Virus record (IMG/VR): IMGVR_UViG_3300036859_000525
Span: 1 to 46,861 of that record
DNA length: 46,861 nucleotides
DNA from: a virus
Strand: one strand, 5' to 3'
Shown here: piece after piece, positions 703 to 45,696 of the stretch
Position numbering within the stretch: the first letter of the stretch is position 1
Layout: the number at the start of each line of letters is the position of its first letter
Program-made: the position numbers and the translations under genes
Notes under the pieces: generated by a model
Databases searched by the model: none
What the model was told of the DNA's origin: nothing
What the model saw: the letters and a program-made list of their open reading frames with translations, nothing else

Positions 703-835
703 CCTCCGTCTTCCTGCCCAGCTCGATCGGGCGCTGTCTCAGGCTGCCGACGCCGAGCGAGTGCCGAAGGCGGTCCTGATCGAGCGAATCATCCGCGAAT
801 GGTTGGAGCAATGGGCAGGACAACGGCCATCGTAA
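692..835 (+). CDS. ribbon-helix-helix (CopG/Arc-like) DNA-binding protein
   Basis: This 47-residue protein starts MPFTLRLPAQLDRALSQAAD and continues with a helix ending in IIREWLEQW. The pattern is that of ribbon-helix-helix regulators: a short hydrophobic/polar beta strand (FTLRLP), a first helix from LDRAL, a turn at VPKA, and a second helix with Arg/Glu. Such proteins bind operators as dimers and are often antitoxins or phage regulators. AAGGG lies about 8 bases upstream of the ATG. The gene is first in the rightward group and overlaps the next small gene by 25 bases. No toxin partner is evident, so an autonomous regulator is more likely. Confidence 0.7.
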   Translation: MPFTLRLPAQLDRALSQAADAERVPKAVLIERIIREWLEQWAGQRPS

Positions 836-897
836 TCGGAGCGTTACTGCTTGGCTGGTTCGTTCCGCTTCTGATCGAAGCCTATTTCCTCTACTAA
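811..897 (+). CDS. 28-residue single-span membrane peptide
   Basis: The frame starts ATG 811 after a TTGGAG site and encodes MGRTTAIVIGALLLGWFVPL followed by LIEAYFLY. Nearly the whole peptide is one hydrophobic segment after a short basic end, so it should insert in the inner membrane. It overlaps the end of the ribbon-helix-helix gene and lies 15 bases before the next gene. Its function is unknown; it is one of many tiny membrane proteins in this genome. Confidence 0.55.
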   Translation: MGRTTAIVIGALLLGWFVPLLIEAYFLY

Positions 898-6964: not shown

Positions 6965-7351
6965 ATGAGTGAAATGCCTGAGCACGTGAAGCGTCATTTG
7001 CATAGCAAGGAGCAGCGGGCTCGTAGCAAGCAGAACGTCCGCACGAACCTGTCCAAGTCCACTCGCACGATGGTTGGCGATGACGGTGAGGCGCTGATCG
7101 CGATCTGGTGGGCGATCGCTAACGACCCGATGCGTCGTGATGCCGATCGTCTGCGCGCAACCGAGCTACTTGCCGACCGGGGCTGGGGCAAGGCCGCCTC
7201 CTTCACCCCGCAGGAGGGAGATCCGCTTGGACTCGAAGATGCCGAAGAGGCAGCCGCAGAGTTCCGCCGTCGGGTCCTTCGCCTCGCTTCCGGAGGAGAC
7301 GAAGGAACAGCTTCTGGCGGAGTTCGCGGAGCAGAGCCTTCTCGGAGCTAA
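6965..7351 (+). CDS. terS: terminase small subunit
   Basis: This 128-residue protein is directly upstream of the large terminase and starts MSEMPEHVKRHLHSKEQRAR. The central WWAIANDPMRRDADRLRATE then LLADRGWGKA segment matches the helix-turn-helix region of small terminases, which recognise phage DNA and load the large subunit. The last 125 bases overlap the large-subunit gene. Identification rests on the motif pattern and position. Confidence 0.7.
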   Translation: MSEMPEHVKRHLHSKEQRARSKQNVRTNLSKSTRTMVGDDGEALIAIWWAIANDPMRRDADRLRATELLADRGWGKAASFTPQEGDPLGLEDAEEAAAEFRRRVLRLASGGDEGTASGGVRGAEPSRS

Positions 7352-8798
7352 CGGCTTCGAGCACTTTCTTTCCTGGTACTGGCCGCTCTGGGCACGCGAG
7401 AACCAGCTCCCCCCGGAGGGGGAGTGGACTTACTGGCTGATCCTCGCCGGGCGCGGGTTCGGCAAGACCCGCTCCGGCGCCGAGTGGATCAGAGAGTCGG
7501 CGACCTCGGGTCGGTTCAAGCACGTCAACCTGATCGGGGCGACCGCCGACGACGCTCGCGACATCATGGTTGAGGGCGAGTCGGGGATTCTGGCGATCTG
7601 CCCGCCTTGGCAGCGGCCGGAGTACCTGCCGACCAAGCGACGGCTCGACTGGCCGAACGGCTGTCGGACGCTGATCTTCACTGCCGACGAGCCGGAGCGC
7701 CTGCGCGGCAAGCAGCATCAGCGTCTGTGGGCGGACGAGCTAGCGAGCTGGCGCTATCAGGAGGCCTGGGACCAGGCGATGCTCGGCCTGCGTCTCGGCC
7801 CCGACCCGCGAGCGTGCATCACCACGACGCCGAAGCCGCGCCCGATCCTGCGTGAGCTGCTCGACCGTGACCGGCTGGTGATGACGCGGGGGACGACCTA
7901 CGAGAACCGCGAGAACCTTGCCGACCAGTTCTACGAAGAGATCATCCGCAAGTACGAAGGGACCCGGCTCGGCCAGCAAGAGCTGAACGCCGAGCTGCTC
8001 CTCGATGAGGGCCTCGCCTACCGCGTCCGCACCGGGGTGCACGTGATCCCGCCTTTCTTCATCCCCGGACACTGGGACCGCTTCGAGGCGATGGACTACG
8101 GCCGCAACCATCCGACCGCCTGGCCGGTCTTCGCCTGCGACTACGACGGCAACATTCTCGTCTTCGACATGTACTACTCGCCCGGGCTCGTCTCCGAGCA
8201 TAGCGCTGCGATCCATGCCTGTCGCAAGCGCTGGTACCCGCCGGGTGAAGCACACGTTTGCTACGGCCCGCCGGACATTCGTTCTCGCTATGGCTTCATC
8301 GACCCCTCCGGTCGGGAGATCTCGGTCGAGACCGAGTTCGCCGATCGAGGGATCTCTTTCGCCACCGCTCAGACCGATCGCCGGGCCGGGTACATGCGAG
8401 TCGAGGAAGCGCTGCGCGAGCGCGAGGAGCGATTGTTTCCGGACTGGCATCCCCTCTCCGGTCAACCCGGCGCTCCACAGCTGTACATCTTCGATCTCGA
8501 TTCCACTCAGCCCTTGATCGAGCAGCTCCGGGAGGCGCCCTTGGAGGATCCATCCTCACCGCTCTCTCGCTTCCCCGGCGAGGCAGTCGAGCAGCTCTGG
8601 GAATCCGATCACGGCCATGCCCACGCGGCGCTCCGTTACGGGCTGATGTCTCGGCCGGGGCCGTCCCCCGGTCTCCCGGACAAGCCGCTCGATGACGAGC
8701 GTGCCGAAGCTCTGCGCCAGAGCTTCCTGCGCGAGCGCGCAGAAGAGGAGGAGATCGATGATGTCGAGTTCGAGTACTTCACCGCCTGGGACCTGTAG
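7227..8798 (+). CDS. terL: terminase large subunit
   Basis: This is the packaging motor with ATPase and nuclease. Walker A is GRGFGKT (about residues 75-81), Walker B RLWADEL (about 166-172), and CITTTPKP is the coupling motif. The carboxy nuclease shows MDYGRNHPTAW, an acidic IDPSG motif and SDHGHAHAALRYG. TTG 7227 follows GGAGGGAG with 7 bases spacing and gives 523 residues; ATG 7239 is a weaker alternative. Confidence 0.93.
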   Translation: MDSKMPKRQPQSSAVGSFASLPEETKEQLLAEFAEQSLLGANGFEHFLSWYWPLWARENQLPPEGEWTYWLILAGRGFGKTRSGAEWIRESATSGRFKHVNLIGATADDARDIMVEGESGILAICPPWQRPEYLPTKRRLDWPNGCRTLIFTADEPERLRGKQHQRLWADELASWRYQEAWDQAMLGLRLGPDPRACITTTPKPRPILRELLDRDRLVMTRGTTYENRENLADQFYEEIIRKYEGTRLGQQELNAELLLDEGLAYRVRTGVHVIPPFFIPGHWDRFEAMDYGRNHPTAWPVFACDYDGNILVFDMYYSPGLVSEHSAAIHACRKRWYPPGEAHVCYGPPDIRSRYGFIDPSGREISVETEFADRGISFATAQTDRRAGYMRVEEALREREERLFPDWHPLSGQPGAPQLYIFDLDSTQPLIEQLREAPLEDPSSPLSRFPGEAVEQLWESDHGHAHAALRYGLMSRPGPSPGLPDKPLDDERAEALRQSFLRERAEEEEIDDVEFEYFTAWDL

Positions 8799-10150: not shown

Positions 10151-10237
10151 GTGGATCACACGCAAGCCACGATCCTGTTGATCGAGGTCGGGATCATCGC
10201 TGTGCTGATGCTGGTCGGCGCGATCCCGAGGCGCTGA
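10151..10237 (+). CDS. 28-residue membrane peptide
   Basis: GTG 10151 follows GGGAGG and gives MDHTQATILLIEVGIIAVLM then LVGAIPRR. One hydrophobic span ends in two Arg, implying an inner-membrane peptide. It is squeezed between structural genes with no gap to the next start. The function is unknown. Confidence 0.55.
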   Translation: MDHTQATILLIEVGIIAVLMLVGAIPRR

Positions 10238-10394: not shown

Positions 10395-10602
10395 GTCTGC
10401 CCGCGAGCGGGCGCTTCTTCGCCTGATCGAGCAACAGCAGCGAACGATCTCCGACCTGGTCGATCGGCTGATGCACATGAGCGGCCAGACCTGGATGCCG
10501 CCTCCTCCGCAGGCGAGCGAAGCGATCGAGGAGGAGCCCTACCTGTACTCCGCTCTCGAAGGCCTACCTCCGACCGAGGAAGAGGAGCAGACGTGGCCCT
10601 GA
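10378..10602 (+). CDS. small helical acidic protein
   Basis: This 74-residue protein starts from GTG 10378 behind GGAAG. A helix (ARERALLRLIEQQQRTISDL) precedes a Pro-rich and acidic tail ending TEEEEQTWP. It overlaps both the previous gene and the portal start. The function is unknown. Confidence 0.55.
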   Translation: MFGRGESARERALLRLIEQQQRTISDLVDRLMHMSGQTWMPPPPQASEAIEEEPYLYSALEGLPPTEEEEQTWP

Positions 10603-12653
10603 ATCTGACCGAGGAGGAAAGGCAGCTCTGGAAGAAGCGGATCGCCGCCGCCGAGCACGACCAGCGCAAGTACCACCCGCTCTGGTTGGAGATCCTCGCC
10701 TTCTGTCAGGGCTTCCACTGGGTCAAGTATGCCGGGCCGCTCTCGCGCAAGCTGGTCACGATCCCGCCGCCGAAACACGGCCGCCGGTACACCGTCGATG
10801 AGCTGACCCAGTACCGTCTGACGATCCTCGGCGAGCTGGCCGGAGACAGCGAGCGGCCGATGGCCCTCTTCCGCCAGGACCAACGGCCGGTTGAGGACTA
10901 CGCGAACCAGGCGAATCTGGCGATCGCCTACGGCTGGGACGAGGAGTGGCACGGCAACCGCGTGCTCCAGGACGCAAAGCGGACGATGATCGACCTCGGT
11001 ACGGCGCCGATCCGCTGCTACTTCGATCCGACCAAGGGCGAGTACATCGGCGAGAAGCCGTTCCTGGGCGGACAGATGCTCGAACGCCAGCAGGCGATGG
11101 ATCTGATCGACCAGGGTCACCCGGTCAAGATCCAGAACATCCGCGAGGGGAAGATCTGTTGGGAGCCGGGTCTGCCCTTCAACGCGCTCGTCCCTCCCGG
11201 CGTTCCCCGTGAGGACCAGTTCAGCTGGCTGGTCTGGAAGTCGGTCGCCTTCCTGCCCGACCTGAAGGAGCAGTACCCGAACGCGGCCAAGGATCTAACC
11301 GCCGACGCGATCCGCTCGCTCGCGACTCTTTCCCGCCCCCAGGATCCGATCGGACGCGAGCAAGGAGCGGAACCGTCCTCCGAGAACCTCGGTGACCACT
11401 GTTTTGTTTACACCTGCTTCCAGCTCCCGAACCGGAAGAACCCGCAGGGCAAGGTCGTCCTGCTCGGCTGCGAGCGCCAGGAGCCGCTGGAGACCTTCGA
11501 CAGCCTGCCCTACAGGGCGCCGGATGGAAGCTGGCGGGCTGGGGTCTACTTCTTGCACGCGATCCGCCTGACCGATCGCTTCTGGTCTCGCGGCTTCATC
11601 GAGATGGCGCTCGACCCGCAGCGGGCGATCAACGAACACTCGACTCGGATCGAGCAGACGATCGCCCACGGCCAGCCCTTCCGTTGGATCGAGGAAGGCT
11701 CGATCAAGAAGCTCCCGGACGGATCGGCGGGGAGTGTCGGCTGGTTGAAGGTCGGCAAGCCTCGCCCGCAGACCGACCCGGGGATGCCTCCGGGCACCTG
11801 GATGTACGACGTGATCCGGGCTCGGCGCGAGGATCTCGCCCGAGCGGTGATGCCGGAGGCGGCGATGGGCGAGAACCCGACTAACGTCACCACCTATTCG
11901 CAGCTCGCCCTGCTTCACTCGCAAGCGGCCAAGCGGCTGAACGCGATCCTGCGCCAGAACGGCGAGGTCGTCGTCCACCTGGTCGAGGACTCGGTCTGGG
12001 ACATCAAGACCAAGTGGGGGCCAGAGAAGCAGCTCCTGCTCGCCGGGCATGAGGAGGGTCTGCAGGCCTTCACCTTCAACGCTTCCCAGTGGCCGGACTA
12101 CTACAAGATCGGCTTCGCCTCCGGGCCGCCGTTGCCGAAGGGCCAGGACGCTCAGATCAAGCTGATCGAGGACATGTGGAACGCGGCCGTCCAGTCCAGC
12201 GCCGCCGTCCGCGATCCCGACCGTTGGCTCTCCTGGCGGAAGGACTCAATGGAGGCGGGGAAGATGCTCGCCCTGCCGAGCCCGCCGGTCGATGCCCAGG
12301 TCGAGAAGGCCCAGTACGAGAACGACATCCTCTTCCAGAACCCGGATCCACAGGTGGCGACCCAGCTTGTGGACTACTTCGACAACCACCAAATGCACAT
12401 CACTATCCATCGCTCGCTACAGGGCACCGCCCGGTTGATGGGCCGAACTGATCTCTTCGTCGGCCTGGAGATCCACTGCAAGGAACACGAGCGGCAGATG
12501 ATGGAGACCGCGATGCAGTCGATCGGGACGCCCGGTCCGACGCATCCGACCGGCGATGTCGCCCCTCCGGCGCCGCAGCTTCTCGGCAGCGCCCCGCCGA
12601 GCCCGAACGGAGGCCAGTCGCAGGGTCAGCCCGCGCAGGCGCAGGGGAGATGA
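10593..12653 (+). CDS. portal protein (podovirus type)
   Basis: This 686-residue protein starts GTG 10593 with GAGGAG upstream. The size, position between terminase and scaffold/capsid, and motifs such as QYRLTILGELAGDSERPMAL and ERQMMETAMQ fit the large portal proteins of P22-like podoviruses, which form the DNA entry ring. The carboxy end is Pro/Gln-rich, as in other portals with a barrel extension. No protease fusion is seen. Confidence 0.8.
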   Translation: MALNLTEEERQLWKKRIAAAEHDQRKYHPLWLEILAFCQGFHWVKYAGPLSRKLVTIPPPKHGRRYTVDELTQYRLTILGELAGDSERPMALFRQDQRPVEDYANQANLAIAYGWDEEWHGNRVLQDAKRTMIDLGTAPIRCYFDPTKGEYIGEKPFLGGQMLERQQAMDLIDQGHPVKIQNIREGKICWEPGLPFNALVPPGVPREDQFSWLVWKSVAFLPDLKEQYPNAAKDLTADAIRSLATLSRPQDPIGREQGAEPSSENLGDHCFVYTCFQLPNRKNPQGKVVLLGCERQEPLETFDSLPYRAPDGSWRAGVYFLHAIRLTDRFWSRGFIEMALDPQRAINEHSTRIEQTIAHGQPFRWIEEGSIKKLPDGSAGSVGWLKVGKPRPQTDPGMPPGTWMYDVIRARREDLARAVMPEAAMGENPTNVTTYSQLALLHSQAAKRLNAILRQNGEVVVHLVEDSVWDIKTKWGPEKQLLLAGHEEGLQAFTFNASQWPDYYKIGFASGPPLPKGQDAQIKLIEDMWNAAVQSSAAVRDPDRWLSWRKDSMEAGKMLALPSPPVDAQVEKAQYENDILFQNPDPQVATQLVDYFDNHQMHITIHRSLQGTARLMGRTDLFVGLEIHCKEHERQMMETAMQSIGTPGPTHPTGDVAPPAPQLLGSAPPSPNGGQSQGQPAQAQGR

Positions 12654-27538: not shown

Positions 27539-28441
27539 ATGGCCAAGTGGTACGAACAGGCCTACCCGGGCGGGCCGATGGTCAAGGTCGCAGGGTTCCC
27601 GAGGCCGCTATACCCGCCCGACGCGGCGAAGCAGGGCAAGACCCCCTCCGCGAACGGGCCGGACGTGATCGCCTACAAGCGCACGGTCTCCCGAGCGGGA
27701 CGCTGGCCCTGGCCTGCCTCGGGAAGCGCTGGGTTCGATGACGCCTTCTCGAACGCCTTCTCGCACGGGAAGAGCGGCAACGTCTCCGAGACCGGAATCG
27801 CCGGGGTCCAGCGCCAGCAGAAGCTCGATCCCACCGGCTGGATCGGCGAGAAGACGTTCAACCTCCTGCGCTCGATCAAGATCCCCCAGGGGCTGCCGAA
27901 CGCCGGACAGATGGCGATGGATGCGACCGCCGTCAATCTGATCTCGCAGGCCTGGATGCTCTACGGCGGGAAGGAACCCGAGCCCAAGCCTCCCGAGGAT
28001 GAAGAGGCGACGGTGCGGACGATGATCGTGGAGTTCTGCAACATTGGCCTCTCGCACACGTCGGTCTGGGACTACCGCCAGTACCGGCCGGTGCCCCTGA
28101 ACGTCAATCCAGCCTCGCCGCCGGACGGCGACTGCTCCAGCTCGGTGATCTGGGCGTTCGACTACGCCCGGCGCAAGACCGGCGTCAAGGTTCCCGATCC
28201 GGCGAAGCAGAACTGGTCGGGGTACGGGAACACGGACTACTACGAGGACGACTGGCCGAGGGTCTCGGGCTCGTACAAGGTCGGCGACCTCGCCCACTAC
28301 AACGGGCATGTCACCATGTGCATGGTCGCTGGCGACTGGAACACGTCCGATTGGTGGAGCTTCGGCAGCGAACCGCCCTCACGGCGGAAGCTGGGCTATC
28401 GCTCTGACTTCCGCTTCGTCTGCAGGCCACCGCTATGTTGA
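27539..28441 (+). CDS. endolysin: peptidoglycan-binding plus cysteine-type amidase/peptidase
   Basis: This 300-residue protein has residues about 60-115 carrying a peptidoglycan-binding fold (SETGIAGVQRQQKLDPTGWI then GEKTFNLLRSI). The carboxy domain has Cys199 in PDGDCSSSVIWAFDYARR and His257 in LAHYNGHVTMCMV, as in NlpC/P60 or CHAP enzymes. It precedes two small membrane-associated genes. AAGGAAG lies before the ATG. It should cleave host wall at lysis. Confidence 0.75.
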   Translation: MAKWYEQAYPGGPMVKVAGFPRPLYPPDAAKQGKTPSANGPDVIAYKRTVSRAGRWPWPASGSAGFDDAFSNAFSHGKSGNVSETGIAGVQRQQKLDPTGWIGEKTFNLLRSIKIPQGLPNAGQMAMDATAVNLISQAWMLYGGKEPEPKPPEDEEATVRTMIVEFCNIGLSHTSVWDYRQYRPVPLNVNPASPPDGDCSSSVIWAFDYARRKTGVKVPDPAKQNWSGYGNTDYYEDDWPRVSGSYKVGDLAHYNGHVTMCMVAGDWNTSDWWSFGSEPPSRRKLGYRSDFRFVCRPPLC

Positions 28442-28560: not shown

Positions 28561-28799
28561 CCGCAGCGAACTGGGACATCGGCTGGGAGACGATGACGCT
28601 CGGGATCTTCTTCCTGCTCGTGCTCGCCTTCGTCGCCGTCGTCCTCGTTCTGCGAGAGAAGCACTCGCACAAGACCCGAGTCGGCTTCTTCATCGAGCGC
28701 GATCGCTTCGAGGACGAGGACTGGGAAGAGTGGGAGTCGGTCACTCCGGTGACTCCAGACGAGCAGCCGACGCAAGGGGACTGGCCGACCAGGAAGTAA
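28557..28799 (+). CDS. holin-like single-span membrane protein
   Basis: This 80-residue protein starts TTG 28557 (overlapping the previous stop) or ATG 28593. One hydrophobic span (MTLGIFFLLVLAFVAVVLVL, residues 13-32) is followed by a charged, acidic tail. Position after the endolysin suggests a holin or holin antagonist, but the single span is atypical of many holins. Confidence 0.55.
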   Translation: MTAANWDIGWETMTLGIFFLLVLAFVAVVLVLREKHSHKTRVGFFIERDRFEDEDWEEWESVTPVTPDEQPTQGDWPTRK

Positions 28800-29397: not shown

Positions 29398-29742
29398 TTA
29401 GAAAGGAAGTTCGTTCGCCAGCTTCTTCAGCTTGGCGATCAGCTCGGCCGGGGGGATGACCCCGCCCTCTAGCTCAGTGGCGATCTGGAGAGCGACCGCC
29501 TTCAGGCTCTCCTCGTCACCGGTCAACAGGTAGTAGGGGCTGACGCCGAGGATCTCAGCAAGGCCCTGAATGATCTCCAGCGAGGGCGTTCGTTCGCCTC
29601 GCTCGATACGGCAGATGAAGGTGTGTGTGCAACCCGGGAAGGCCATGTCTCGCTGGCTGAGACCGCGCTCCTCACGCAGCTTCAGCAACCGGAGACGAAA
29701 GCCTTCGGGATCAGCGATCTCCGGGACGAGCGTGTAGCTCAT
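29398..29742 (-). CDS. Xre-family repressor
   Basis: This 114-residue protein starts at ATG 29742 in ATGA overlap with the integrase. A classical helix-turn-helix occupies residues about 16-70: LRLLKLREERGLSQRDMAF, then THTFICRIERGERTPSLEII and a closing LGVSPYYLLTG. The carboxy third is helical. Coupling to integrase suggests the immunity repressor or a control protein for lysogeny. Confidence 0.75.
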   Translation of the reverse strand: MSYTLVPEIADPEGFRLRLLKLREERGLSQRDMAFPGCTHTFICRIERGERTPSLEIIQGLAEILGVSPYYLLTGDEESLKAVALQIATELEGGVIPPAELIAKLKKLANELPF

Positions 29743-30905
29743 CCGAACGCCTTCCGGTGCATCTCGGCGACCCACTCGGGATTGCGAGTCCGCTCTGTGA
29801 CTTCGTGCTCGTAGGTGGAGCGGACGGTCTCGATCGTATCGCCCATTTGGTCAGCGACCCATGCGATGTCTGCCCCAGCCGAGATCATTCGGGAGCCGTA
29901 GTTGTGCCTCAGCTTGTGCATCGAGAGAGGTTCGTATCCGCCCGAGGCGATGAAGGGCTCACCGAGCCGGTCGCGGAACCCGGGATAGGGCTTCTGGCCG
30001 CCAGGGCGTCCGTTCAAGTAGGCGGTCAGGCCGCCATAGGTCACGTCGCCACAGACCGGCTCATCCGGGCGTCGCATGATTCCAACAAAGGCGAGCTGTT
30101 CCTTCAAGAAATGAGGCGTCTCTTCGCCCATCTCGACTGATCGTCCGACCGGCTGGGTGTGTCGATCGGTCTTCAAGCCGGGGACCCAGGTACCAAGCTC
30201 GGGGTCGAGCATCCCCTCATAGAAGATCTGGCTTGTCTCCCAGAGGATGTTGCGCCAGCGCAAGCCGAGGATCTCGCTGATGCGAGCCCCGGTGTAGTAA
30301 GCAAGAGCGAAGACGATCCGATACTGCGGTGCGACCTCAGCGAAGAGCCTGTCCATCTCAGCCCTCGTGTAGATCCGGATCTTCCCTTTCTTCTTCTCTG
30401 GCCTCTCCTGCGCGGCGAGCCCAGAGACCGGGTTGTTAGGGAACATTCTGTCCGTCTTCCAGGCGAAAGACAAGACCGTCTGAATGTTGGCCAGGTGGCT
30501 ATTCACCGTGTTGCCTGCCAGCCCAGCCGCGAGCATCGGCTGGAGAACTAGCTGGCGGATGTGCTCGGTCGTGATTTCGTGGACCCAGAGCCGGTGCAGC
30601 GGGCTAACCCACTGACTCCGAAGCCGCTTCATGTAGAGCCGTCTCGTTGAGGGCTTTAGCCTCTGATGCCGGGTCTCGATCACACTAGTTGCGTACTCCA
30701 AGTACCTGACTCTCGTCTGAGAGCGGAGCTTGATCTGGCCGCTTTCTCTCAGCTTCCAGTCGTACGCTGCCTTCCAGGCCTTCTCTCCTACTAGGCCTTG
30801 GTACACCTGCTTTGGGACTGTGACGCGCTTCCCGTCGAGCTTGAAGCTGTAGCTATCCCCTCGCTTTACAAGCCCTGGGTAGCGTCTGTTACGTTCTTCG
30901 TGCAC
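29739..30905 (-). CDS. int: tyrosine integrase
   Basis: This 388-residue protein has an amino DNA-binding part, a SAM-like core domain and a catalytic domain. Catalytic residues are Arg208 (TGARISEIL), Lys245, His330 and Arg333 (MHKLRHNYG), and Tyr365 (VRSTYEHEV). The usual His/Trp before the Tyr region is Asp (QMGD). It starts GTG 30905. It should recombine attP with a host site; attP probably lies in the 28800-29397 stretch next to its 3' end. Confidence 0.92.
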   Translation of the reverse strand: MHEERNRRYPGLVKRGDSYSFKLDGKRVTVPKQVYQGLVGEKAWKAAYDWKLRESGQIKLRSQTRVRYLEYATSVIETRHQRLKPSTRRLYMKRLRSQWVSPLHRLWVHEITTEHIRQLVLQPMLAAGLAGNTVNSHLANIQTVLSFAWKTDRMFPNNPVSGLAAQERPEKKKGKIRIYTRAEMDRLFAEVAPQYRIVFALAYYTGARISEILGLRWRNILWETSQIFYEGMLDPELGTWVPGLKTDRHTQPVGRSVEMGEETPHFLKEQLAFVGIMRRPDEPVCGDVTYGGLTAYLNGRPGGQKPYPGFRDRLGEPFIASGGYEPLSMHKLRHNYGSRMISAGADIAWVADQMGDTIETVRSTYEHEVTERTRNPEWVAEMHRKAFG

Positions 30906-33948: not shown

Positions 33949-34136
33949 TGCTCTGCCTCTCGGAAGCGATGAGCGGCGCAGAGGTAGAAGATCGCCTGCC
34001 GATGGCCGACCTCGGTGTTCGTGATGAACTTCGCCCGCTCGTCGCAGCCGACGTAGGAGCAAGGCCCGACGTCGCCTGCCGCCTGGCGTTCCTCGGTCAC
34101 GCGGACGCGTGCACGGACGACTACTGACAAGCCCAT
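33945..34136 (-). CDS. small cysteine/histidine protein
   Basis: This 63-residue protein starts ATG 34136 after GGGGAGG. CSYVGC and YLCAAHRF make a Cys3His metal site. It overlaps the transglycosylase end by 16 bases. The role is unknown. Confidence 0.6.
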   Translation of the reverse strand: MGLSVVVRARVRVTEERQAAGDVGPCSYVGCDERAKFITNTEVGHRQAIFYLCAAHRFREAEH

Positions 34137-34630
34137 TCGCCTCCCCGGCCCTGCCGCTCCATCCAGGCGGCGGCGAGGGCGTTCGCATACGGCGACCAGA
34201 CCGACTCGTCGGCGTAGGGCGTCCGGCTCCAGGTCGAGGGGTAGAGGAACTGGAAGAGGCCCGAGGCCGACGAGCTTCGGTTCTTCGCGTAGCGGTTGAA
34301 GGTGCCGCCGGTCTCGCAATGAGCGCGGCGCTTCAGAAGCCCGTAGGAGACGCCGTAGGCGATCGAGGCGAGACGGATCGCCTCCAGTGAATCCGGCCTG
34401 TGTACGGCCTGGAGACGGCGCCCTGTGAGCCTTGTCTCCAGCTCGCGTACCTGGAGCACGCGCTGGGTGAGACGGTGCTGGAGGTTGTCGCGCTGGGCGC
34501 GGTACTTCTTCGCTGCCGCGTGGGCGTAGCGGTAGGAAGATTTCCAGTCGGCGTCGCTCGCGCTCGCACGAGTGCGAAGGGTGGCGAGCAGAAGGAAGGC
34601 TGTTACGAGAACTATGAGGGCGGTGAGCAT
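34121..34630 (-). CDS. membrane-anchored lysozyme/transglycosylase-like protein
   Basis: This 169-residue protein has an amino membrane anchor (MLTALIVLVTAFLLLATLRT), a coiled part to about residue 70, then a lysozyme-like core: RRAHCETGGTFNRYAKNRSS with catalytic Glu, SASGLFQFLYPSTW, and a closing ANALAAAWMERQ ... EWAC. The domain is like those of Rpf/SLT enzymes. Finding a wall enzyme in the early genes, away from lysis genes, is unusual; it may modify the wall during infection. Confidence 0.75.
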   Translation of the reverse strand: MLTALIVLVTAFLLLATLRTRASASDADWKSSYRYAHAAAKKYRAQRDNLQHRLTQRVLQVRELETRLTGRRLQAVHRPDSLEAIRLASIAYGVSYGLLKRRAHCETGGTFNRYAKNRSSSASGLFQFLYPSTWSRTPYADESVWSPYANALAAAWMERQGRGGEWACQ

Positions 34631-36125: not shown

Positions 36126-36333
36126 CCCACTCCTGTGGCTCCGCCCCTTTGAGTAGCTCCTGGCAGCGCGCACAGCTCTCTTCAAACCACGCCATGGACA
36201 TTCCGTCCTGGGCGAAGTCGCGCTCTCCTCCAGCCCGGCGGGTCGCTCCGCACGGGCAGGTCAATGTCCAACTGAAGGCGTGACAACCGTCCGAGTGCAT
36301 GTACGTGCTCCAGGTGTGCTCGTGCTCGCTCAT
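36100..36333 (-). CDS. small cysteine-rich protein
   Basis: This 77-residue protein starts ATG 36333 (ATGA overlap) and contains CPCGATRR and CARCQELL, so two Cys pairs likely bind one metal. Trp/His-rich start (EHEHTWSTYMHSDGCH). The function is unknown. Confidence 0.6.
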   Translation of the reverse strand: MSEHEHTWSTYMHSDGCHAFSWTLTCPCGATRRAGGERDFAQDGMSMAWFEESCARCQELLKGAEPQEWDEITEAKG

Positions 36334-36431
36334 TCCTTCGTCCTCCCGAGGAAGCTGCCGACGAGCAGAGCGAGCAAGAAGGCGACGAAGAGCCAGCCGA
36401 GGACGATGCCGAGGACGCCGTACCAGGGCAC
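36330..36431 (-). CDS. 33-residue membrane protein
   Basis: This gene starts GTG 36431 after GGAG and ends in ATGA overlap. The sequence MPWYGVLGIVLGWLFVAFLL and ALLVGSFLGRTKE is one long span with a basic end. It is one of the tiny single-span proteins of the early region. Confidence 0.6.
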   Translation of the reverse strand: MPWYGVLGIVLGWLFVAFLLALLVGSFLGRTKE

Positions 36432-39534: not shown

Positions 39535-39566
39535 GCGCCGGGGACTTGGGAGCTGCGGGGGGACCC

Positions 39567-40409
39567 GTGGCTCAGCCGATCGAAGAACGTGTGCAGGCGG
39601 TGCAGCTCTTGCTCGCGTCGCTGCTCGACTATCTGCCGACGCCGGTGACAAGCTCGGGCTTGATCGCTCGCTCCAGCCTGCCGGGACCGGCGCCGGGCAA
39701 GCGGGTGCCGTGCGGGCACTGCCGTCGCTCCGGTCGGATCCACTCGATCAAAAAATCTCGGATCTGTCCGGTCTGCGAGGGCCACGGGTGGCGGGCGCGT
39801 CGCCGCTTGAACCCGAGCCACCCCTTGTACGAGCAGCCCTACGACGAGTACACCGGGTTGCCGGTGCAGGCCGACGAGACGCAGCACCCGAGCGCGATGT
39901 CTGACCGCCAGCTCGGAGCCGCGCTGGAGCAGCTGGAGTATGCGCACGAGCTTCGCCTCGGTCACTCGGAGGGCGAGCGCTACGGCTGGGAGCGGGAGCG
40001 GATCGCGCACGATCGGCAGGGCTCCTACCGGGAGTTGCGTCGCTCGCTCGGGCTACTCCATCGCCGCTGGCCGGTTGGCTACCAGCAGGTCCATCGCGTC
40101 CACTTCCGAGGTCTGTCGATGCTCTGGAACAAGATCGATCGGCTCCTGCTTGACGCCGCCGAGGAGTGGGTCGCTCGCGAGATGCGTGGACCGGTTCGGG
40201 TTCCGCCCTGGCTTCAGGAACGGCGAGCGGCCGACCGGCAGAAGACGATCCAAGAACTCACCAAGGAAGGTCTTTCCGCCGGTCAGATCGCCCGGGTGCT
40301 TCGGATCCCGAAAGCGAAGGTGAAACGGCTCCTTGCAGGCACCGGATCGTCTCGTTATTCTCCCGGTGAGCAAACGCTCCCGGGGGAGTCGGAGCGAGTC
40401 CGAACGTGA
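39567..40409 (+). CDS. DNA-binding protein with DnaJ-like zinc motif and helix-turn-helix
   Basis: This 280-residue protein starts GTG 39567 behind GGGGGGA (TTG 39546 also possible). CGHCRRSGR and CPVCEGHGW resemble the CxxCxGxG repeats of DnaJ zinc regions, at about residues 50-75. The carboxy end has a resolvase-type helix-turn-helix (ELTKEGLSAGQIARVLRIPK). It is the only rightward gene in the early half, so it may be an activator or replication protein. Other functions cannot be excluded. Confidence 0.6.
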   Translation: MAQPIEERVQAVQLLLASLLDYLPTPVTSSGLIARSSLPGPAPGKRVPCGHCRRSGRIHSIKKSRICPVCEGHGWRARRRLNPSHPLYEQPYDEYTGLPVQADETQHPSAMSDRQLGAALEQLEYAHELRLGHSEGERYGWERERIAHDRQGSYRELRRSLGLLHRRWPVGYQQVHRVHFRGLSMLWNKIDRLLLDAAEEWVAREMRGPVRVPPWLQERRAADRQKTIQELTKEGLSAGQIARVLRIPKAKVKRLLAGTGSSRYSPGEQTLPGESERVRT

Positions 40410-40442: not shown

Positions 40443-41012
40443 CTAGCCGACTTCGGACCCATTCCCACTCGCGGCATTGCGGAGCGCGTCGAGGCGCTCC
40501 CGGAGATCCGCCGCTTCGTCCAGCTCGTCGGCGATCCCACGGAAGACCTCGTCCTTGTCTCGCAGGTCCGCGACAAGGCGAAGCAGCTTCGCTTCGGCCA
40601 GCACGTGACGGGCCTCGGCGGGCGAAGCGCTCGCCCGTAGGCCCTGCTTCAGCCTCGATGTCCGGATCTTCCCCGTCCAGACCGCTCGAATGTCGGAGCG
40701 CCGCCCCTGCTCTGCGGTCTCGACCAGGACCTGCCAGCGCCGTTCCAGGATCCTCAGCCTGCGAGCGATCATCCGCTGCTCGGTCTGCTCCGGGGTGCGC
40801 TTCACCCGCGGGTTGTCCCGCCAATGGAAGACTTGCTCGTCCAGCTGCGACTCGGACCAGATCGGTCCGCACTTCAACCGGACGACCGGCTCGACCACCC
40901 GGCCACGGCGAACGAGCGCGGTCATGTTCTTTCTGGTGATCCCCAGGTACTCGGCTGCTTCGTGCACTCCATAGAGACGAACCTCGAATGGGTCGTAACG
41001 GCGCCGTCTCAC
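40443..41012 (-). CDS. excisionase/MerR-like DNA-binding protein
   Basis: This 189-residue protein from GTG 41012 (GTGA overlap) has residues 12-65 that give a winged-helix of the MerR/excisionase type: YGVHEAAEYLGITRKNMTAL, VRRGRVVEPV and WSESQLDEQV. The rest is coiled coil. It could be the directionality factor or a regulator of early genes. It converges on the gene ending at 40409. Confidence 0.65.
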   Translation of the reverse strand: MRRRRYDPFEVRLYGVHEAAEYLGITRKNMTALVRRGRVVEPVVRLKCGPIWSESQLDEQVFHWRDNPRVKRTPEQTEQRMIARRLRILERRWQVLVETAEQGRRSDIRAVWTGKIRTSRLKQGLRASASPAEARHVLAEAKLLRLVADLRDKDEVFRGIADELDEAADLRERLDALRNAASGNGSEVG

Positions 41013-41317
41013 GCCGCCGTTCTCCGGTAGCTCAGTGCTGCTTCGATCGCTTCGGCTCGGGTCTTCATCCAGCATTCGGTTGTGACCCAGCGGTCCCAGG
41101 CATAGTCCAGTTCGTCGTCGTTCGCTGCTTGCTCCAAGGTCCCGTCGTAGCGGGCACAGGCCCAGTAGGTGCCGGGGTCGATCACACCGCTGTCCGGCCC
41201 CTCGTGGTAGCGATAGATCCGCCAGAGCGTCCGGCCGTCGTTCGAGGGGAGCAGGTAGTCCCCGGCCTTGATCCGGACCATCTGGTACTTGCGCTCGGTC
41301 GAGCTAGGGGCAGTCAT
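41009..41317 (-). CDS. conserved actinophage-type small protein
   Basis: This 102-residue protein from ATG 41317 contains RIKAGDYLLPSNDGRTLWRI then YRYHEGPDSGV, a pattern common to small proteins of actinobacterial phages with unknown role. It overlaps neighbours on both sides. Confidence 0.65.
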   Translation of the reverse strand: MTAPSSTERKYQMVRIKAGDYLLPSNDGRTLWRIYRYHEGPDSGVIDPGTYWACARYDGTLEQAANDDELDYAWDRWVTTECWMKTRAEAIEAALSYRRTAA

Positions 41318-41459
41318 AACCGAGAGCATTCCGCTCGCATCCGGAGTAGGCGTCGCCGCCGCCCCAGACAGCGAGCACGATCCAGACAACAACGACTGCC
41401 AGGGCGGCTGCAATCGAGGCGATAGCGATGAGCCGTGACCGCCATGTCGTAGCCCTCAT
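41304..41459 (-). CDS. 51-residue membrane protein
   Basis: It begins MRATTWRSRLIAIASIAAAL, followed by AVVVVWIVLAVWGGG and a short outer part with two Cys (CERNALGYDCP). It has one span and a basic inside end. The start is coupled by ATGA to the gene at 41456-41563. Confidence 0.6.
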   Translation of the reverse strand: MRATTWRSRLIAIASIAAALAVVVVWIVLAVWGGGDAYSGCERNALGYDCP

Positions 41460-41563
41460 AGCGGCCATCCTTGGGCCAGGTAGATGATCAGTCCGATCAG
41501 GGCGATGACGAGCAGGATCGCCGGGAAGATCAGTGCGTCCTTCAGGCCGGTGTTCTTGATCAT
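41456..41563 (-). CDS. 35-residue membrane protein
   Basis: It reads MIKNTGLKDALIFPAILLVI then ALIGLIIYLAQGWPL: one hydrophobic span. AGAGGAG lies before the ATG and both ends overlap neighbours by ATGA. Confidence 0.65.
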   Translation of the reverse strand: MIKNTGLKDALIFPAILLVIALIGLIIYLAQGWPL

Positions 41564-41751
41564 GTCTCTCCTCTGAGCGCTCCGTGGATCAGGGCATCGT
41601 TCAGCCAGACGCGGAGCATCTCGTCCGGCTCTCGTTCGGTCTCGATCTCGACCACCTGGACCGACCCGTCTTCGGACGGGCCGACCCAGAGGATGATCTT
41701 GCCGTCGTCGGTCTCGACAACGAACTTCGCCATCTGCGGGTTCGCGGTCAC
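41560..41751 (-). CDS. small hypothetical protein
   Basis: This 63-residue protein from GTG 41751 follows GGAGG. Beta-type core KFVVETDDGKIILWVGPSED is followed by acidic helix. It overlaps both neighbours. A longer start at 41781 is possible but lacks a ribosome site. Confidence 0.6.
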   Translation of the reverse strand: MTANPQMAKFVVETDDGKIILWVGPSEDGSVQVVEIETEREPDEMLRVWLNDALIHGALRGET

Positions 41752-41789
41752 GAGACCTCCACCCAGAGATGACTGTTCCATTCGCTCAT
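41748..41789 (-). CDS. 13-residue coupled micro-ORF
   Basis: ATG 41789 overlaps the stop of the membrane protein (ATGA) and its own TGA overlaps the next GTG (GTGA). It encodes MSEWNSHLWVEVS. GAGG lies about 8 bases upstream. It may be a leader that couples its neighbours rather than a functional peptide. Confidence 0.4.
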   Translation of the reverse strand: MSEWNSHLWVEVS

Positions 41790-41887
41790 GTCACGGCCTC
41801 GATCAGTCGCCACAGCCCAGTCAGTGCCACCAGGGCAACAAGCCAGACGGGTACTTCTATCTTCTCGGTGAAGAATGCTTTTATCAT
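41786..41887 (-). CDS. 33-residue membrane protein
   Basis: It reads MIKAFFTEKIEVPVWLVALV then ALTGLWRLIEAVT, with one membrane span. Coupled downstream by ATGA. Confidence 0.6.
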   Translation of the reverse strand: MIKAFFTEKIEVPVWLVALVALTGLWRLIEAVT

Positions 41888-42027: not shown

Positions 42028-42158
42028 GGTTTCTCCCTCCGGTTCGCTTCCATGTGGTCGTCGCAGATCGAGCAGAACGGAGCCCCCAGCGGGTTCCCCC
42101 GCCAGGGGCAGTCGTGCTCGCACTCAATGCATTCGGGGTCGTGCTCCACAGGGGTCAT
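42024..42158 (-). CDS. 44-residue zinc protein
   Basis: It starts ATG 42158 after GGAGAAG. Paired cysteines CIECEHDC and CSIC with an adjacent His (CDDHMEA) should bind metal. Coupled by ATGA on the downstream side. Confidence 0.65.
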   Translation of the reverse strand: MTPVEHDPECIECEHDCPWRGNPLGAPFCSICDDHMEANRREKP

Positions 42159-42853
42159 GGCTTCTCCTTCTCGTGCGGGTTGCAGTGGTGAGCGAGCGCC
42201 CAACCGCGAGCGGTCGCGGCCTTGCGCTCAGCGATTCCGGCCGCGCAGTGCTCGGCCGCTTCCTTCGCTGATTCGATGACCCACTCCGAGTCACCGACAT
42301 AGCCGCCGCACTGGTCGAGAGCGTTTCCGTTCTCGTCCTCGACAACGTAGTAGTAGACCTCGCCCCGGAGCCAGGAGTCGTACTCCTCGACTTCCCCGGC
42401 CAGCTGTTTGCAGATCCACTCTTCGGCTGTCCCTTCCCAGTCCCTCGGACAGTAGTAGGGGTCGCCGTTGCGGACGGGCTCGCCGCAAAGCTCGGCGATC
42501 CGTTCCTTGGTCGTGAAAATGATCCCGACCGTGCCGGAGTCCCACCCGGCTGAGTCCGACCAGTGCGCTCCGCCTCCGACGTACATGGAGATCCCGGAGT
42601 GATCGATCAGGCCCAGCTGGGTCAGACCGATCGCACCCTGAGTCAGAGAGAACCAGCGGGCGATCTGTCTCCACGATCTGAAGTCGGAGCGGTAGCTCTC
42701 GACCTGCTCATCCCCGAGCGTATATCGGCCGTGGGCACAGACCATCGTGCCCAGGTTGCAGTTGTCTCTCGGGTCGCAGAAGGAGGAGTCCTCCTCCAAG
42801 CAGATCCGGACCGTGAGTCCGACGTGCTCGAAACTCTCAGCAATGTTGCTCAT
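42155..42853 (-). CDS. conserved phage protein
   Basis: This 232-residue protein contains GLIDHSGISMYVG then WDSGTVGIIFTTKERI, which matches a family of phage and mobile-element proteins with no known function. A second part (EEYDSWLRGEVYYYVVEDEN) is beta-rich. It lies in order in the leftward early operon. Confidence 0.7.
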   Translation of the reverse strand: MSNIAESFEHVGLTVRICLEEDSSFCDPRDNCNLGTMVCAHGRYTLGDEQVESYRSDFRSWRQIARWFSLTQGAIGLTQLGLIDHSGISMYVGGGAHWSDSAGWDSGTVGIIFTTKERIAELCGEPVRNGDPYYCPRDWEGTAEEWICKQLAGEVEEYDSWLRGEVYYYVVEDENGNALDQCGGYVGDSEWVIESAKEAAEHCAAGIAERKAATARGWALAHHCNPHEKEKP

Positions 42854-44002: not shown

Positions 44003-44098
44003 TTACTTCCGTCTTTTCCGGTTCCGGATCACCTCTCCGATGGCGACCCAGCCGAACAGGTAGCAGAGGGCCACCAGGGGTAGAAGTGTCTCCTTCAC
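44003..44098 (-). CDS. 31-residue membrane protein
   Basis: It starts GTG 44098 in GTGA overlap with the clamp-like gene. MKETLLPLVALCYLFGWVAI then GEVIRNRKRRK gives one span and a strongly basic cytoplasmic tail. It ends before the promoter at 43947. Confidence 0.6.
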   Translation of the reverse strand: MKETLLPLVALCYLFGWVAIGEVIRNRKRRK

Positions 44099-45095: not shown

Positions 45096-45281
45096 TCAGT
45101 TTCTCCAGTCGAGGGTGTGTCCGGTGACGTACTGGGGCAAGACTCTTTCTGTGCCCCAGAGACCGAAGTCGATGTGCAGGTACTTGTGCCCGACCTTGAC
45201 GATCCGGCCTTCCTTGACGACTCCGAACATGCGGGGATGGAACGCTGTTACGGTCTCGCCTGTCTTGTAGCTGGGGTTCAT
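45096..45281 (-). CDS. small beta-barrel-like protein
   Basis: This 61-residue protein from ATG 45281 follows AAGGAG. MNPSYKTGETVTAFHPRMFG and VKEGRIVKVGHKYLHIDFGL look like an SH3/KOW-type small barrel with nucleic-acid or protein binding. Coupled to the preceding membrane gene by ATGA. Confidence 0.65.
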   Translation of the reverse strand: MNPSYKTGETVTAFHPRMFGVVKEGRIVKVGHKYLHIDFGLWGTERVLPQYVTGHTLDWRN

Positions 45282-45373
45282 CTCTCGTTCTCCTTGGTCT
45301 CCGTAGGCTTGGCCCAGGTCAGTACCAGTCCGGTCAGGGCTACTGCTAGGACGATGATGATGTAGGGCAGCAT
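45278..45373 (-). CDS. 31-residue membrane protein
   Basis: It reads MLPYIIIVLAVALTGLVLTW then AKPTETKENER: one span and a charged tail. CGGAGAACGAG precedes the ATG. Confidence 0.6.
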   Translation of the reverse strand: MLPYIIIVLAVALTGLVLTWAKPTETKENER

Positions 45374-45597: not shown

Positions 45598-45696
45598 CTA
45601 GAGTCTTTCGATCAGACCCCCGAGACCCCCGAGTAGAGCGGGGATGACGAGGACCAGACCGAGGAACAGTCCGTAAGCGTGGATGATGGACTTCAA
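45598..45696 (-). CDS. 32-residue membrane protein
   Basis: It starts TTG 45696 after TAGGAGGAG. The sequence (KSIIHAYGLFLGLVLVIPAL then LGGLGGLIERL) is one long hydrophobic span. The function is unknown. Confidence 0.6.
   Translation of the reverse strand: MKSIIHAYGLFLGLVLVIPALLGGLGGLIERL

Follow-up and report, generated by a model that had tools for sequence, protein, structure and literature searches.

Tiny, probably coupled genes in an uncultured temperate phage

Is a run of very small open reading frames (ORFs), each with one hydrophobic span, a set of genuine phage genes, and if so, what might their products do? Genes so short are usually omitted from phage annotation. The question is raised by an uncultured temperate tailed phage, whose 46,861-base virus record in IMG/VR is the window analyzed here. 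The original prediction drew attention to a run of three such ORFs, counted at least nine in all, and proposed that a battery of peptides made early may target host membrane complexes or block superinfection.

The late genes of this phage lie on the plus strand, and those presumed to be early on the minus strand (Table 1); the early timing is judged from strand and gene order only. A sigma-70 scan for promoter-like sites found none, with a consensus that may not suit the host. A portal scan of genomes, aimed at the host, gave no match, and a terminase scan matched only distant genomes from several phyla, and so does not place it. A nucleotide search of the 36- to 46.9-kb part against phages also gave no match. 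The nearest relative found is IMGVR_UViG_3300036841_000153 (G001; 46,954 bases; 79% for terminase and 82% for portal), which is collinear with the window except for a circular shift. Its reverse complement (G1r) served for comparison, and as the only near-complete relative in the collections, it alone carries the close-relative comparison.

Table 1. Genes and tiny ORFs of the window, in order of position
Feature	Coordinates	Strand	Remarks
ORF 811, 28 aa, hydrophobic, doubtful	811-897	+	overlaps end of conserved ORF 692-835
Terminase	7233-8798	+	late module
ORF 10151, 28 aa, single span	10151-10237	+	late/structural module, upstream of portal
Portal	10593-12653	+	late module
Candidate endolysin	27539-28441	+	late module
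XRE regulator (XRE-type repressor)	29398-29775	-	
Integrase	29739-30905	-	
ORF 36330, 33 aa, single span	36330-36431	-	start immediately past stop of 121-aa gene
HTH DNA-binding protein	40443-41012	-	last of chain
p102, soluble, 102 aa	41009-41317	-	downstream of TM51
TM51, 51 aa (MRATTWRS...), N-in span	41304-41459	-	ATGA overlap with TM35
TM35, 35 aa, one strong span (MIKNTGLKDALIFPAILLVIALIGLIIYLAQGWPL), predicted N-in	41456-41563	-	ATGA overlap with p73
p73, soluble, 73 aa	41560-41781	-	
TM33, 33 aa, one span (MIKAFFTEKIEVPVWLVALVALTGLWRLIEAVT)	41786-41887	-	ATG 2 nt past upstream stop
YR45, soluble, 45 aa	41890-42027	-	upstream of TM33
Zn44, Cys-rich, 44 aa	42024-42158	-	68% in G001; left border of variable segment
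ORF 44003, 31 aa, single span	44003-44098	-	GTGA overlap with sliding-clamp-like gene; C-in (RNRKRRK)
ORF 45278, 31 aa, single span	45278-45373	-	ATGA overlap with conserved 61-aa gene
ORF 45598, 32 aa, single span	45598-45696	-	TTG start behind TAGGAGGAG; after first conserved early gene

The three ORFs are present on the minus strand where they had been placed, with 51, 35, and 33 codons and one hydrophobic span each. Eight short genes on the minus strand (42158-40443) form the chain to which they belong, in the order Zn44, YR45, TM33, p73, TM35, TM51, p102, and HTH. The interleaving with other small genes that had been described is evident, with p73 between TM33 and TM35 and the 102-aa and 45-aa ORFs flanking the run, and so is the geometry of coupling: junctions are 4-nt overlaps (Zn44/YR45, p73/TM35, TM35/TM51, and p102/HTH), a 14-nt overlap (TM51/p102), or gaps of 2 nt (YR45/TM33) and 4 nt (TM33/p73). 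This geometry is that of translated, coupled genes, and suggests that the chain is translated. Two starts have alternatives: p73 may begin at GTG 41751, where the ribosome site is stronger, and another in-frame ATG would extend TM51 to 54 aa. The TM51 span is flanked by charges of +4 on its N-terminal side and -2 on its C-terminal side, and the C-terminal tail, predicted to lie outside, carries two cysteines (CERNALGYDC).

Ribosome sites, codon usage, and chance expectation

The SD duplexes of the trio have energies of -6.6 (TM33), -9.0 (TM35; AGAGGAGA), and -7.4 kcal/mol (TM51), to be read against a background of only 72 random starts, the lowest tenth of which reaches -6.6 kcal/mol. Codon usage was scored as synonymous bits/codon over 35 codons, where true frames give +0.16 +/- 0.13 and wrong frames -0.10 +/- 0.18. 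By this measure TM35 (+0.40, the best of the nine ORFs), 36330 (+0.31), 10151 (+0.22), and 45598 (+0.18) are coding-like and 45278 (+0.11) is weakly so; 44003 (+0.06) and TM51 (0.00) are neutral, and 811 (-0.13) and TM33 (-0.41) are not coding-like. Support within the trio is thus uneven, with geometry favoring all three members and codon usage clearly favoring only TM35. TM33 is the weakest member, with a hydropathy of 1.83 and codons that leave geometry as its only support; it could have arrived recently (GC 0.53) or be noncoding.

All six of the other ORFs in the original count exist, and their number is well above chance, although 811 is doubtful. Its sequence is shared in part with the 3' end of a conserved gene and its ribosome site is weak (SD only -3.4 kcal/mol), so 811 is probably not real. 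ORF 45598, by comparison, has an SD energy of -10.2 kcal/mol. Kyte-Doolittle values for the nine ORFs (28-51 aa, one span each) range from 1.83 to 3.01 over 19 residues, which, by size and predicted span, would place them in the general class of small single-span membrane proteins (under about 60 aa, one hydrophobic span).

We estimated chance expectation with a fixed rule (25-60 codons, mean hydropathy >= 2.3 over 17 residues, and SD duplex <= -5 kcal/mol), which leaves out TM33 for its hydropathy and 44003 for its SD energy. Five ORFs qualify on the gene strand of the early half (46000-29398), against zero in antisense orientation and zero over 60 first-order Markov shuffles. For the late half, the corresponding counts are one, zero, and zero. 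The better control of the two is the antisense count, since in coding DNA Markov shuffles give too low an estimate of chance. Applied across 18 phage records, the same rule finds six in the window, the highest count, and zero to five in the 17 others (median, two; D29, one), part of these latter counts being antisense noise. The window is therefore rich in such ORFs, but neither unique nor exceptional, and similar tiny-span ORFs are scattered across other phages.

Conservation and replacement in relatives

Only two of the nine ORFs have a homologue in G001. That of 36330, found in two phages, lies at G1r 15264-15169 before an exonuclease gene (50% over 30 aa; 1e-10, pairwise). ORF 10151 is found in three phages, with homologues of 28-32 codons (L098:8957-9043 and L097:157-252) flanked by an Ig-like structural gene and portal; the pattern TQ..L..EVG.IAV..L.GA is invariant, with the Glu inside the span, and 10151 is the best-supported tiny membrane gene of the window. 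The trio, 44003, 45278, 45598, and 811 have no homologue in G001, the single close relative. Lack of conservation in relatives had been named in advance as the outcome that would count against the prediction; with G001 as the only relative compared, it is seen for these seven ORFs and not for 10151 and 36330. Broader searches gave no relative of TM35 (tblastn in 50,697 phage records) or of TM51 and p73 (IMG/VR viral contigs), no homologue of TM33 in the searches made, and no family, defense, or exclusion model matching the ORFs in PHROG, Pfam, or PADLOC.

Compared with G001, the window has tiny-span ORFs inserted at three sites, namely after the first early gene (63 aa), after the clamp-like gene, and between Zn44 and HTH. 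In G001, the 63-aa gene adjoins the 61-aa gene, with 45598 and 45278 absent between them, and the clamp-like gene is followed directly by a soluble gene, without 44003. Between Zn44 and HTH, G001 carries a different gene set, which assigns the trio to a variable accessory segment; the last member of this set, an unrelated single-span ORF of 32 aa, shares an ATGA overlap with the start of the HTH homologue. Absence from G001 may reflect loss there, gain in the window, or homology eroded past recognition. With one near-complete relative, it argues only weakly against function and more strongly for fast turnover.

The original prediction treated the nine ORFs as one set, which does not hold: they are not paralogues, their predicted orientations differ, two are late, and two others sit elsewhere in the early half or far from the trio. 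A single paralogous family was rejected since no pair within the window scores better than E 0.005, and matches involve at most 19 hydrophobic residues. We also considered tiny spans as companions of p102, which has 13 relatives in IMG/VR (37-63% identity), and found no association; only 2 of the 13 have one within 300 nt. The HTH gene, as a single query against viral contigs, gave no match.

Possible roles of the tiny membrane peptides

We favor, at roughly even odds (about 0.5), the explanation that the trio are genuine translationally coupled small genes encoding fast-turnover accessory membrane peptides, each modulating a host membrane component. The trio would lie in the variable stretch that separates the conserved Zn44 and HTH genes in what is presumably an early operon, and encode single-span inner-membrane peptides of unrelated origins. 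Early in infection, each peptide would insert into the host membrane and there modulate either a membrane complex of the host or a process of its envelope, and being individually dispensable, such peptides could be quickly gained, lost, or swapped. The explanation is built on the ORFs, their coupling geometry, the excess over chance, the non-paralogy, and the replacement in the relative, and we infer translation, early timing, membrane insertion, and a host target. Ribosome sites, the coding-like codons of TM35, and the scattered tiny-span ORFs of other phages speak for it as well. Counted against it are the unusual codons and moderate hydropathy of TM33, the neutral score of TM51, and the lack of a trio homologue in the collections searched. 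As to the battery made early, most of the ORFs do lie in the early block by layout, whereas 811 and 10151 fall in the plus-strand late half.

Tiny single-span phage proteins are already known, and as far as seen here these differ only in number and in their replacement at fixed slots. Most of the tiny genes are missing or replaced in G001, which gives them the look of ordinary accessory genes that change fast, and not of a new system. We consider it quite doubtful that the early operon has dedicated insertion slots that phages of this lineage fill with differing single-span peptides, forming a rapidly evolving set that would, as a whole, remodel the host envelope or exclude competitors.

It is conceivable, though on the whole unlikely, that these are translational spacers or young near-neutral ORFs that keep ribosomes moving between p73, p102, and HTH, with products that do little. 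Low sequence conservation, the weak codon support for TM33 and TM51, and the presence in G001 of an unrelated short ORF coupled at the equivalent position fit this explanation, but a single span recurs far above chance, the TM35 codons are strongly coding-like, and 36330 and 10151 are kept as spans across phages. That the ORFs are artefacts, untranslated hydrophobic reading frames, has the slimmest chance of being correct given the strand bias, ribosome sites, overlap geometry, and shuffles, even though TM33 and 811 fail the codon test and antisense hydrophobic ORFs occur in other phages too; for 811 alone, it is likely.

Superinfection exclusion or prophage defense, in which peptides in the membrane of an infected cell or lysogen would prevent other phages from injecting their DNA or that DNA from entering, is rather improbable. 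In its favor, genes for an integrase and an XRE-type repressor are present, membrane proteins are common among known exclusion proteins, and an arms race fits high turnover; but the trio lies in the middle of a presumed lytic early operon, 11 kb from the repressor and integrase, PADLOC, PHROG, and Pfam give no match, and the examples checked have more spans (four each for Sbash gp31 and RexB; PMC6426596). A part in lysis timing, as holin-like or antiholin-like peptides working with the phage lysis cassette, is a natural thought for small single-span proteins, which can be holins or antiholins, and actinophage lysis cassettes often contain several such proteins, according to work cited in PMC10700055. 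The trio, however, is not located beside the candidate endolysin gene but in the early block, on the opposite strand. Directly after the endolysin gene is a 69-aa ORF (28590-28799, plus strand) with one N-terminal span, a holin candidate that the original prediction had missed, and G001 has two membrane ORFs directly past its endolysin gene; with lysis-like genes elsewhere, a lysis role for the trio is very unlikely.

For the favored explanation, that of accessory peptides modulating host membrane components, the closest parallels are small membrane proteins of phages and bacteria. Mycobacteriophage nonstructural genes include predicted single-span proteins, some of which inhibit growth when overexpressed and others of which do not (PMC11373665, PMC10700055); by analogy, these two overexpression screens are consistent with a host-membrane role for the window peptides, but are not a demonstration of it. 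Adephagia gp33, Hammy gp32, and the 54-aa gp50 resemble them in being small, with one predicted span and no assigned function, and encoded among nonstructural or lysis-adjacent genes (PMC11373665, PMC10700055), although those were assayed in Mycobacterium smegmatis, the window proteins are shorter (28-51 aa), and the likeness is one of size, span, and gene setting. Small bacterial membrane proteins can act on membrane complexes, with MgrB inhibiting PhoQ (PMC2789325). YohP (27 aa) and MgrB (47 aa) are alike in size, single span, and lack of an enzyme domain (PMC7549839, PMC8404706), but are cellular stress genes with conserved families, whereas the window ORFs match no family. P22 SieA and the RexB-like Sbash gp31 are likewise phage-encoded membrane proteins (PMC10883804, PMC6426596), but exclusion proteins are multi-span (in the Sbash gp31 case), are prophage-expressed beside the repressor, and have no homology to the window ORFs.

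In general terms, it is already known that tiny membrane genes are numerous in phages. If translated, each tiny ORF would offer a compact, inexpensive, and testable way to probe a host membrane process, and which of them to test could be chosen by comparing the conserved 10151 and 36330 with the replaced ORFs.

Other features of the minus-strand block

Directly after 45598, at about 45575-45540 on the minus strand, is a perfect terminator-like hairpin (AACCCTCC-CCTGC-GGAGGGTT) with a modestly T-rich tail, which was spotted by eye and not reported by the terminator scan; it could terminate or attenuate the first of the early transcripts. The gene overlapping 44003 (44634-44095, minus strand) encodes a short sliding-clamp-like protein that matches phrog_947, DNA polymerase processivity factor (5e-8), and DNA_pol3_beta below threshold, and has 61% identity to its G001 counterpart. 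At 42155-42853 (minus strand) lies the gene for a 232-aa phrog_6186 protein with relatives at 26-34% in large alphaproteobacteria and Bacillus phages. Also in the early block, and apart from the lysis genes, 34121-34630 (minus strand) encodes an N-terminal span followed by a weakly matching transglycosylase-like domain. Within the minus-strand block is one plus-strand gene, 39546-40409 (55% identity to its G001 counterpart), whose product combines a zinc-ribbon-like stretch rich in Cys with an HTH at the C terminus and has a weak match to late transcriptional activators.
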